Shown here: positions 36,661 through 54,258 of the stretch, one piece after another
Layout: each line of letters starts with the position of its first letter
How positions within the stretch are numbered: the stretch's first letter is position 1
Virus record (IMG/VR): IMGVR_UViG_3300008120_000040
Span: 1 to 60,589 of that record
Strand: one strand, 5' to 3'
DNA from: a virus
DNA length: 60,589 bases
The notes under the pieces: model-generated
What the model was told of the DNA's origin: nothing
Seen by the model: the letters and a program-made list of their open reading frames with translations, nothing else
Database searches by the model: none
Program-made: the position numbers and the translations under genes

Positions 36661-37119
36661 TTAAATCAATCTCAACCTATTCCCGTTGAAGAATACATTA
36701 GGATTCACCCAGAACTCTATATTAGACCCTAGCTTCTGAGCTATTATCTTATTCTCAATTAGGTCTGTTATGCCAGCCTTTATCGTGTTGGGGGAGGATA
36801 TACCTGTGGAGACCTGTATGTCTGGAATATGGTATACTACCGTCTGACTGAGGGGGCGTATAGTACATGCACCGTAAACCAGTAGCCTCAACCCAGTACC
36901 CGTTAAATTCATTAAATCTTTCAAGTTGTCATTAAACAGCTTTGTATAAGCTGAAGTGTCAGATAGTGACATCTTGTTCTTAGGTATCTTCCTGACAGCG
37001 TATAGGTCATCCCCATCTTTCATCTGCCATACCTCCTCATCGTGTTTTGTAATGTAGTGACGCTCCTCTAGTCCTAGAACCCTAAATGGACTCTGTATGT
37101 ACGATTCGTACTTTTTCAT
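36661..37119 (-). CDS. RepL-like winged-helix protein (152 aa)
   Basis: 152 residues. The C-terminal half looks like a winged helix of the RepL / plasmid replication family: TVVYHIPDIQVSTGISSPN (recognition helix region), TIKAGITDLIENKIIAQK, then the characteristic ending FWVNPNVFFNGNRLRLI. It is the first gene of the late arm and borders the non-coding region that holds iteron-like repeats. It could be a replication initiator acting there or a regulator of the two divergent arms. Family assignment is from the NPNVFFNG motif and fold pattern. Confidence 0.68.
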   Translation of the reverse strand: MKKYESYIQSPFRVLGLEERHYITKHDEEVWQMKDGDDLYAVRKIPKNKMSLSDTSAYTKLFNDNLKDLMNLTGTGLRLLVYGACTIRPLSQTVVYHIPDIQVSTGISSPNTIKAGITDLIENKIIAQKLGSNIEFWVNPNVFFNGNRLRLI

Positions 37120-37149
37120 ATATTTGCATTGACTTATTTAAAATGGAAA

Positions 37150-37157
37150 CAAATATA
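37150..37157 (-). promoter_or_regulatory. TATATTTG -7 box of the first late gene
   Basis: The minus strand reads CGTATATTTGTTTCC, 30 bases upstream of the ATG at 37119. Confidence 0.6.
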
Positions 37158-37402
37158 CGTCATCTTGAAACTAAAAAATCAATTTGACGTATTTTTTTTA
37201 CAATAAATTGAAAAACACGTATTGATTCTCAGTCTGTTACAAGGTTTCCTTCTTATATATATTATACTGTAACTACACGCTATATAAATGTCCAGTTTAT
37301 TATAGTAAAAACTTGACACCAGTCAAGCTATAGCATTACCGTATCGGCTGTTTAGTCAAGCGTTAACTTTACGTGCGGCCCTCCGTCAAAATTATGTGAG
37401 AT

Positions 37403-37441
37403 ATGTGACCATGCAAGTTATGAGGTATGTAAGCATGCAAG
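37403..37441. repeat. Iteron-like direct repeats
   Basis: ATGTGACCATGCAAG (37403-37417) and ATGTAAGCATGCAAG (37427-37441) match at 13 of 15 bases with a 24-base period. A partial ATGTGAG lies just upstream at 37394. They lie near the RepL-like gene and could be its binding sites. Two copies are few for a classical iteron array. Confidence 0.5.
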
Positions 37442-37471
37442 GGAACTATATATGCATAGTGGGTATAACGC

Positions 37472-37494
37472 CTAGGTGAAATTCAAATTCCTAG
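37472..37494. repeat. CTAGG...CCTAG inverted pair, copy 1
   Basis: CTAGG (37472-37476) and CCTAG (37490-37494) enclose 13 bases. It is one of three such pairs in the control region. Confidence 0.45.
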
Positions 37495-37707
37495 CCCGTG
37501 TACCCCCTAGAAATGATTGAAAATCAGCAAGTTATATCGTATAAACTAACTAGATAGAAGTGATAGCGCATAGCTATTATACGTATAGATAGGATGCTAT
37601 AATATAAATAGTTGTCTATGCAACTAACTTAGATTCCCTCCTCATATCAATGTTCAAACATCTAATTCATTCCCTTATCGCGCACACATGTACGCGCTAT
37701 ATACTAA

Positions 37708-37735
37708 CTAGGATTTTGTACCTAAATTCTCCTAG
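37708..37735. repeat. CTAGG...CCTAG inverted pair, copy 2
   Basis: CTAGG (37708-37712) and CCTAG (37731-37735) enclose 18 bases. Inner sequences differ from the other two copies. Confidence 0.45.
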
Positions 37736-37925
37736 GGAAGGCCTTCTATATGGGTCTAAATGTTAAAATTCCTTTAACACATTTCCTGCCATTTTAAGGC
37801 GATTCTAGCCTATCAAATCGTTTTTGAGGCAATCACCTTAGACACCCCGAGAAAGTGGAAATTTGGGGAAATTAACAGGTCTTTAACATATACACTTTAA
37901 CTTTTTCTTAACGTATGTTTTCGTA

Positions 37926-37976
37926 TCATACGCGCATACGCGCACATACGCACGCACGTACACACGCATACGCGCG
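37926..37976. other. 51-bp perfect alternating purine-pyrimidine tract
   Basis: Every one of 51 consecutive bases alternates pyrimidine and purine, mostly CG, CA and TA steps (CATACGCGCATACGCGCACA ...). Such tracts can form Z-DNA under negative supercoiling. It is strikingly CG-rich for this A/T-rich genome and lies about 100 bp before the early leader. Confidence 0.8.
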
Positions 37977-38050
37977 CCCTATATCCTTATAGGGAGGCTG
38001 TAAAAAAGCTTTAACAAGAGTTTAACAATAAATATTTGGAGGGTCTAAAA

Positions 38051-38058
38051 TATGTTTG
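38051..38058 (+). promoter_or_regulatory. TATGTTTG -7 box, probable early promoter
   Basis: Matches TAnnTTTG. It is the last such box on the plus strand before the early genes. No good TTTG -33 element lies at the usual 19-21 base distance (a TTTG at 38035 is too close). A start near 38065 would give a leader of about 400 nt. Confidence 0.45.
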
Positions 38059-38064
38059 CACTTT

Positions 38065-38391
38065 TACAATGTCAACGGGGGACACCCCAACGACGCAGTT
38101 CTTTACAAGGTGGGTCACTCTAGGTAATCATTCCTAGGTAAGCACGACCCGATATCGCGAAAGGTTAGACAATCTGACTAAGTAGCACGAAAGGATATCC
38201 GCTAGGCCAACAAGCACACCAACAACCAACACACACCATCACCGCGCTGAGGGTATAAAAAGAGAGCGGGTAAGTAGCTACCACCTACATAGGTAGCGAT
38301 GACCTTACAGCAACGGAATCTGATTCTAGAATAATAGAATGGACGAGCTGAGATTGTCTCAGTTGCAGTCGGTTTACTAGGACGATAGCCC
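38065..38391 (+). ncRNA. Structured 5' leader upstream of early genes
   Basis: Several strong local hairpins follow one another: GGGTC/GACCC closing CTAGG/CCTAG (38112-38150 region), GTTAGA/TCTGAC near 38165-38180, GCTACC/GGTAGC near 38277-38298, and CTGAGA-TTG-TCTCAG near 38350. CGAAAGG occurs twice between two GATATC words. The absence of an ORF and this density of stems suggest a folded RNA. It leads directly into the type III hammerhead. No known riboswitch class is recognised. Confidence 0.5.
38120..38137. repeat. CTAGG...CCTAG inverted pair, copy 3
   Basis: CTAGG (38120-38124) and CCTAG (38133-38137) enclose 8 bases and lie inside a GGGTC/GACCC pair, so this copy would be the apical stem of a leader RNA hairpin. 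Confidence 0.5.
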
Positions 38392-38446
38392 AATGTACGC
38401 GGTTAAAAAAGCACCGCGCTGACGAGTCACAGAATGACGAAACATT
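38392..38446 (+). ncRNA. Type III hammerhead ribozyme
   Basis: All core parts are present in order: stem III AATGT (38392-38396), cleavage triplet GTA with predicted cut after 38397, stem I CGCGGT/ACCGCG (38398-38403 with 38413-38418), CTGACGA (38419-38425), stem II GTCA/TGAC (38426-38429 with 38435-38438), GAAA (38439-38442), and closing CATT (38443-38446). With the last A of GAAA, that pairs 5 bases of stem III. Every stem is fully Watson-Crick. It lies 20 bases before the first early ATG. Cleavage would leave the early mRNA with two 5' hairpins. Activity is inferred from the complete core. Confidence 0.88.
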
Positions 38447-38465
38447 AACAAAAAACCTATGTATT

Positions 38466-38699
38466 ATGAACAAAGATTACATCGTATCAATTACCAAGAC
38501 AAGCCATTTTAACCTAGATTACAAGCAATTAGCTATTGCCTACGAGCTTAGCACATGGGATGAAGCATGCGAGAAGTACAAAGAATGCGTCGCAGATGAA
38601 TCCATGCACGTTTCTACCTTAAACAGCGTGAGGTCAAGCGTAACTATCACGATGGCGCACAAGGACAGCATCCAATATAGAGTAAACATATACAACTAA
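38466..38699 (+). CDS. First early gene, unknown function (77 aa)
   Basis: 77 residues (MNKDYIVSITKTSHFNLDYK ... IQYRVNIYN), soluble, with no recognised domain. It is the first ORF after the control region and lies between two hammerhead ribozymes, so its message may be cut out of the long early transcript together with the next gene. The A-rich leader AACAAAAAACCTATGTATT is typical of non-Shine-Dalgarno starts. Confidence 0.75.
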   Translation: MNKDYIVSITKTSHFNLDYKQLAIAYELSTWDEACEKYKECVADESMHVSTLNSVRSSVTITMAHKDSIQYRVNIYN

Positions 38700-38954: not shown

Positions 38955-39010
38955 GGTTAACTGACGAGCTGTTTATCAGCGAAATGCCCGCCCCCACGGG
39001 TATCTTAACC
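38955..39010 (+). ncRNA. Type I hammerhead ribozyme
   Basis: Core in order: stem I GGTTAA (38955-38960), CTGACGA (38961-38967), stem II GCTG/CAGC (38968-38971 with 38977-38980), GAAA (38981-38984), stem III TGCCCG/CGGGTA plus the core A-U pair (38984-38990 with 38997-39003, one G-U), cleavage triplet ATC ending at 39004, and stem I partner TTAACC (39005-39010). The predicted cut is between 39004 and 39005, leaving a 22-nt A-rich leader on the next gene. All conserved core residues are present. Confidence 0.9.
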
Positions 39011-42720: not shown

Positions 42721-42933
42721 ATGGCAAAAGAAATGAGGGTCTATATTATAGACACATCTAGAATGAGCGACGAGGATTTATTCGGCAAGCCCGTATACAC
42801 GTCTGACAATGAATCGTTTATGGATATGGCAGAGACCTTTGGCGATGTCTATTCCTTAAAAGGTTTTGAAGAGGCTGTATCACTACGCTCCATGGATTTA
42901 AGCAACTGCTATTTAAGATTTATTAAAATATAA
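42721..42933 (+). CDS. Small early protein (70 aa)
   Basis: 70 residues (EMRVYIIDTSRMSDEDLFGK, MDMAETFGDVYSLKGFEEAV, NCYLRFIKI), a small alpha/beta-looking protein. Its ATG abuts an exact copy of the repeated 16-base leader element. Similar short proteins ending in YLRF(I/V) occur in Bacteroidota phages as I recall. The function is unknown. Confidence 0.7.
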   Translation: MAKEMRVYIIDTSRMSDEDLFGKPVYTSDNESFMDMAETFGDVYSLKGFEEAVSLRSMDLSNCYLRFIKI

Positions 42934-42944
42934 AAAAACAAATC

Positions 42945-43199
42945 ATGTTAACACAAGACCAAAAAAACCAATTAGAACAAATGTGCGACGATGTTGCACC
43001 ATATTACATTATGGATGTAATCAAGGACGCATACAGCTGTACTAGAAAGCGCGACTTAATAGACGAGATGATTGAATACCTGCAGGACGAGGGGTATATT
43101 ACTATTAAGCCATCTAGTATATTAGAACAGCAGAAGGTAGAAGACTTCGTGGTAGAGTTAAAGCCATACCACAATGACCGCCAATATTTATTCATTTAA
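42945..43199 (+). CDS. Small helical protein (84 aa)
   Basis: 84 residues (CDDVAPYYIMDVIKDAYSCT, LIDEMIEYLQDEGYITIKPS), helical with a short beta tail. The helix pair could be a winged-helix fragment. It ends next to a TAAATTTG box at 43197. Confidence 0.7.
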   Translation: MLTQDQKNQLEQMCDDVAPYYIMDVIKDAYSCTRKRDLIDEMIEYLQDEGYITIKPSSILEQQKVEDFVVELKPYHNDRQYLFI

Positions 43200-43204
43200 A
43201 TTTG
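43197..43204 (+). promoter_or_regulatory. TAAATTTG -7 box
   Basis: Matches TAnnTTTG and lies 45 bases before the ATG at 43250 in a 50-base gap. No TTTG -33 element is evident, so it is weaker than the boxes at 46478 and 47101. Confidence 0.4.
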
Positions 43205-43249
43205 CTAAACTGCAAGTAATTAATTAATTTTACACAAAATCATAACACC

Positions 43250-54183: not shown

Positions 54184-54258
54184 GTCCCATTAACTCAATG
54201 GTAGAGTCTTCGCTGATAAAGAGCGAGGGGTGTATAGGTTCGATTCCTATATGGGACT
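54184..54258 (+). tRNA. tRNA with abnormal anticodon arm (identity uncertain, possibly Ile)
   Basis: Acceptor GTCCCAT/ATGGGAC (54184-54190 with 54251-54257), T8-A9, D-arm ACTC-AATGGTA-GAGT and T-arm ATAGG-TTCGATT-CCTAT are canonical. The anticodon arm is 3 bases too long. The most stable fold is CTTCGCT/AGCGAGG with loop GATAAAG, which lacks U33. A CTGATAA string inside equals the E. coli tRNA-Ile(GAU) loop but its flanks do not pair well. CCA is not encoded. It may be an atypical tRNA-Ile or a non-decoding tRNA-like RNA. Confidence 0.7.

Follow-up and report, generated by a model that had tools for sequence, protein, structure and literature searches.

A positionally conserved alternating purine-pyrimidine tract in a divergent phage control region suggests selection for the capacity to form Z-DNA

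Inserts of the (CG)n and (CA)n type in supercoiled plasmids reportedly form Z-DNA, as studied by Peck and Wang and by Rahmouni and Wells, and transcription is said to stabilise Z-DNA in E. coli. Elements that lie upstream of a promoter and respond to supercoiling are also known, an example being the SIDD element of ilvPG in E. coli. It has long been asked whether bacteria and their viruses have evolved functions for Z-DNA. In eukaryotes, so-called Z-flipons are Z-prone sequences associated with active promoters, as stated in two sources (PMC11293857, PMC5066173). A 2025 review (PMC12607565) describes bacteriophages as largely uncharted with respect to where non-canonical structures occur and what impact they have. 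Among the open-access papers searched, none was found to report an element like the one presented here in phages.

The window, i.e. the whole stretch of DNA analysed, is an uncultured virus record of 60,589 bases with 36% GC. Leftward late and structural genes extend up to position 37119 and rightward early genes start at 38466, enclosing a divergent control region of about 1.35 kb (37120-38465). This region contains a tract of perfect purine-pyrimidine alternation, 51 bp in length: CATACGCGCATACGCGCACATACGCACGCACGTACACACGCATACGCGCGC. The features of the region are the following.

36661-37119, minus strand: gA, the first leftward gene, 152 aa, winged-helix; anchor for the control regions of relatives.
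37150-37182, minus strand: promoter-like TTG-N22-TATATTTG, ahead of the leftward (late) operon.
37679-37697, no strand: second alternating tract, 19 bp, in the same control region; second-best predicted Z site of the window.
37882-37887 and 37896-37901, plus strand: TTTAAC boxes left of the main tract; boxes on either side of the tract recur in relatives.
37927-37977, no strand: main alternating tract, 51 bp; counterparts by position in the related contigs L003, L004, L005, L040, L042, L043, L047 and L066.
37977-37994, no strand: short inverted repeat CCCTATA-TCCT-TATAGGG on the right border of the tract, seen in the sequence.
38010-38015 and 38021-38026, plus strand: TTTAAC boxes between tract and promoter; pairs also in L002, L004, L040, L042, L043 and L047.
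38051-38058, plus strand: TAnnTTTG -7 box of Bacteroidota type, TATGTTTG, presumed early/leader promoter.
38060-38465, plus strand: long leader, about 400 nt, with a hammerhead-like ribozyme at its end.

The first-pass annotation had placed the tract at 37926-37976. Its length and perfect alternation are confirmed, and its coordinates shift one base to the right, as base 37926 is a T ahead of C (a Y-Y step) and lies outside the alternating run. The tract was also held to be improbable by chance, which agrees with an expectation of about 2e-11 runs of at least 51 bp per window at an alternating-step frequency of 0.491; the next-longest runs in the window measure 19 bp and then 15 bp, with none longer elsewhere. 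The proposed richness in CG and CA is borne out by 11 CG, 9 CA and 5 TA steps (CG or CA in 20 of the 25 YR steps) and by a GC content of 63% versus 34% in the flanks. CG and TA account for 44% and 20% of the steps, compared to 12% and 44% in the other alternating runs of the window. A nucleotide search with the control region gave no match among known phages. Rfam matches of the tract to mir-297, sno_ZL1 and Alfamo_CPB were dropped as weak, sub-threshold low-complexity matches.

The placement of the tract between repeats and early leader also holds: to its left the sequence shows a pair of repeats, each about 20 bp long (37398-37417 and 37422-37441), and the -7 box lies downstream. Likewise, promoter-like sites are found on both sides, in line with the suggestion that the tract sits between operons that diverge, a position at which negative supercoiling would be expected to build up. 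Both sites resemble the promoter elements of Bacteroidota, TTTG and TAnnTTTG. The full arrangement TTTG-N19-TAnnTTTG is present at the corresponding place in L040, L042 and L043, and the TTTG of the window, at about 38035, lies just 12 bp away from the -7 box, which makes it a doubtful -33 element. The phage group probably infects Bacteroidota. Only the window and L002 have the inverted repeat of 37977-37994 in intact form, and it is not a general feature of the relatives.

Z-DNA propensity, which the first-pass annotation had proposed to calculate, was obtained with a two-state B-Z model of a 4,363-bp domain, using the dinucleotide constants of Z-Hunt; the resulting B-Z energies rank sites and are uncalibrated here. 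In this ranking the tract is the top predicted Z site of the window (z -6.8), with a modelled transition at a sigma of about -0.039 (sigma50 0.039, negative supercoiling), within the physiological range. Tracts of at least 35 bp give modelled sigma50 values of 0.039-0.041, and tracts of 17-19 bp about 0.043. References in the same model are 0.0365 for (CG)7, 0.043 for (CA)16 and 0.060 for (TA)25. The tract resembles the (CG)n and (CA)n plasmid inserts in being alternating and rich in CG and CA, with a predicted flip near -0.04, at a site where transcription would underwind the DNA. It differs from them in being natural, aperiodic and conserved in position, and in that Z-DNA is a prediction here. 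Like the SIDD element, it lies upstream of a promoter with which it could exchange torsional energy; unlike SIDD elements, which are AT-rich and melt, it is GC-rich and would flip to Z. With the eukaryotic Z-flipons it shares a Z-prone sequence, an alternating run rich in CG and CA/TG steps in its own case, and the association with a promoter; in contrast to them it is phage DNA, and the evidence consists of alternation conserved across diverged genomes.

The terminase, the DUF932-like protein and the gA protein served as queries and yielded many related contigs, whose control regions were placed with the gA start as anchor. One long tract of 35-65 bp is present in each of nine related contigs, the window included: 51 bp in the window, 59 in L003, 57 in L004, 65 in L005, 49 in L047, 35 in L040 and L043, and 39 in L042 and L066. 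All nine tracts lie 695-835 bp from the gA start and are followed by the rightward early promoter region, while gA identity among these contigs falls to 39%. Runs of at least 26 bp occur once per tract-bearing record (n = 9) and nowhere else in 37 whole records (about 1.8 Mb). The closest relative, L002, whose proteins are 97-99% identical, retains only 19 bp of the tract after a clean 32-bp deletion, and also has a second 19-bp tract. Short tracts of 17-20 bp are found in L002, L026, L065 and L178; the contig of L065 ends before the gA distance can be measured. About half of the relatives are without any tract: none is present in the control regions of L022/L032, L031, L035, L036, L050, L051, L053, L054, L062, L063, L064, L067, L068 and others. 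L006-L009 carry a DUF932-type gene, with no gA homolog in the loci examined and no tract. In bacterial genomes no relative of the terminase was found. Conservation in relatives, named in the first-pass annotation as a check, is seen by position and composition in nine contigs, though not uniformly, with only 19 bp left in L002 and no tract in many relatives. As L002 keeps 19 bp and about half of the relatives have no tract, the element is dispensable or lineage-specific, and it is not essential across the phage group. In the terminase tree, long tracts occur in both main clades, requiring at least 3 changes of state, by gain or loss.

Comparison of homologous tracts displays transitions only: 12 between L042 and L066, 17 between L047 and L066, 10 between L003 and L005, and 4 between L040 and L043, with zero transversions. 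Of the flank changes for the compared tract pairs, 49-66% are transversions (34-51% transitions). If transversions arose as often as in the flanks, three disjoint pairs, on paths without a shared branch, would show none with probabilities of 5.9e-4, 0.034 and 5.9e-5 (combined 2.7e-7); as the tracts were recognised by their alternation in the first place, this test carries some ascertainment. The letters themselves are not conserved, the window and L047 being CA-rich on the plus strand and L003-L005 TG-rich; such opposite strand bias in different phages is as expected for a property of the duplex. The tract is intact in every sampled member of the L003-L005 and the L040/L042/L043 groups. GC amounts to 57-64% in every tract versus 34-37% in flanks. 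A cruciform or hairpin element was rejected, as hairpin energy has no excess over shuffled YR units (z -1.2 to +2.1). A dinucleotide microsatellite was rejected as well, since tandem identical units are absent: unit order is no more repetitive than in shuffled YR units, with a longest unit run of 2-4.

The lack of transversions, the retained GC and the lack of any hairpin or repeat excess point to alternation plus CG/CA(TG) content as what is kept, i.e. a structural property rather than the letters, given the mode of recognition stated above. Alternation and richness in CG and CA(TG) are the two determinants of Z-DNA. The tract is confined to certain lineages and differs in length among them, and there are strong signs that its alternation is under selection. 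This data suggests that natural selection keeps a stretch of DNA able to flip into Z-DNA on underwinding, and the Z-DNA reading of the tract is partly supported.

Based on this dataset, we consider it about evenly balanced between right and wrong that the tract acts in the divergent control region as an element that forms Z-DNA and responds to torsion. From computed properties, namely its presence, position, and kept alternation and composition, we infer Z-DNA formation, coupling to supercoiling and an effect on the promoter. In such a mechanism, leftward transcription of the late operon and rightward transcription of the early leader would underwind the DNA between the two promoters, and the underwound tract would flip from B to Z at a sigma of about -0.04 (model value), absorbing about 0.36 turn of negative twist for each dinucleotide. 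The promoter of the long leader RNA lies some 70-90 bp downstream of the tract, which could act as a torsional buffer, storing negative twist beside that promoter, or as a switch that sets a threshold for it; the effect might be of either sign.

A different explanation, which we regard as unlikely, is a B-form flexible or protein-binding element, in which a phage or host protein (gyrase, a nucleoid protein or an activator) reads the YR steps, as flexible hinges, rather than left-handed DNA. Alternation kept without the letters would also suit a reader of shape or flexibility, and in many phages the tract has TTTAAC boxes to its left and right. However, TA is the most flexible YR step, and the tract is depleted in TA and enriched in CG, a preference not expected from flexibility by itself. 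Nor do the tracts, at 35-65 bp, have the fixed motif or fixed length that a protein site would require. Moreover, no topoisomerase or Z-alpha family is found among the 20 window proteins scanned; this absence of a Z-alpha protein is a further difference from the eukaryotic Z-flipons.

Still more doubtful is a slippage-prone degenerate microsatellite, possibly a contingency locus, whose alternation would persist via 2-bp slips and transitions with no selection on structure. The aligned tracts do differ by even lengths (the 32 bp deleted in L002 relative to the window and a 2-bp indel between L003 and L004). The second tract of the window changes fast relative to L002, with five differences in its 19 bp versus flank mismatches of 2 and 7 per 100 bp, and all five are transitions, with zero transversions. 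On the other hand, the shuffled-like order of units described above does not fit, and the equal-length pairs L040/L043 (35 bp) and L042/L066 (39 bp) differ by transitions only, at flank transversion rates of 9-24%. AT-biased drift should also raise TA, and GC stays high in every tract; partly decayed tracts were seen in none of the control regions examined.

Finally, the tract could be part of a replication origin, as an unwinding or iteron region, instead of a transcriptional element. The cumulative GC-skew minimum of the window is at 38243, the repeats at 37398-37441 are near, and gA is a winged-helix protein with weak matches to RepL (4 of 14 members, best E 6e-4) and fold matches that include pPS10 RepA (Z 7.1, rmsd 2.7, 85 aligned). 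An origin role of the control region is weakly supported by this minimum and the adjoining RepL-like gene; for the tract itself it is highly improbable, since the divergence of the operons alone predicts a skew switch, the tract is the most GC-rich part, opposite to a melting element, and phages without a tract keep gA and similar repeats, both of which are thus independent of it. The structure model of gA (mean pLDDT 71) otherwise matches generic winged-helix folds only; a Z-alpha fold is absent among the matches listed, which excludes nothing. The gA protein might initiate replication or regulate the control region.

Returning to the Z-DNA-forming element, a broader proposal is made with more hesitation: a prokaryotic regulatory element in which the Z-forming capacity, and not the sequence, is under purifying selection, possibly serving as a torsional switch that links late transcription with the early transcription diverging from it and is tied to the ribozyme-bearing leader. 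The first early ORF begins at least 1,215 bp from gA in the tract-bearing phages, and in most tract-negative phages the gene of a lysine-rich protein starts 734-1,145 bp from gA (exceptions L170, L171 and L190). This association of long tracts with long leaders is weak because it is phylogenetically clustered. The nine natural variants, which differ in letters and agree in alternation, together with close relatives in which the tract is short or missing, provide a ready comparison set.

A distant parallel exists in MW202828.1, whose terminase is only 31% identical; the record is from an uncultured podovirus of Manatee Spring. It has the only run of at least 22 bp among six named relatives searched; none is present in Elemovirus, Bacelvirus, Callevirus, Maribacter phage Panino and Flavobacterium phage 6H.

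42999-43189 of MW202828.1 (800-990 of L164), divergent region: alternating stretch of 190 bp, 83% alternating, CG/CA-rich.

This stretch has leftward groEL-side genes on one side and rightward early genes on the other, and TTTG-N20-TAnnTTTG follows about 280 bp downstream, then a leader of about 370 nt. A hypothetical ORF over the stretch (42896-43219) is probably spurious. As the stretch has more internal repeats and phase breaks than the tracts of the window group, it is a parallel and not a proven homolog.

Several contigs end near gA, and a genome end in the control region was considered and rejected, as G009, G012 and G026 have end overlaps of 49-127 bases, as from circular maps, so that no physical end is shown. 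The assemblies behind L026, L035 and L062, and the ends of L059, L061 and L065, break in or beside the control region, 210-408 bp from gA, some of these contigs with end overlaps of the same 49-127 bases; this suggests an assembly problem or population variation.

In tract-negative phages the first product of the early operon is a protein rich in lysine and alanine (MKxATKxxKA..., about 125-170 aa), seen in L022, L031, L035, L036, L050, L051, L053, L054, L062-L064, L067 and L068. The short-tract phages L026 and L065 have such an opening protein as well. It is possibly a nucleoid-like DNA-binding protein.

The leader of the window ends in a hammerhead ribozyme-like RNA of type III layout (38390-38448, plus strand; 41.0 bits, E 3.4e-7, below the Rfam gathering score of 48.5), and RNAs of the same layout are found at 5611-5668 of L003 and 1932-1989 of L009. 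A type I hammerhead-like motif, GGTTAA-CTGANGA...CGAAA...TTAACC, was recognised by eye only at 38955-39010 (plus strand) of the window, and copies at 2238-2282 and 2539-2587 of L009 score 23-31.5 bits against RF00163 (gathering 34). Motifs of this type seem to precede several early ORFs and perhaps process the early transcript. The only Rfam match of the window that reaches its gathering threshold is a tRNA gene at 54184-54258 (plus strand).
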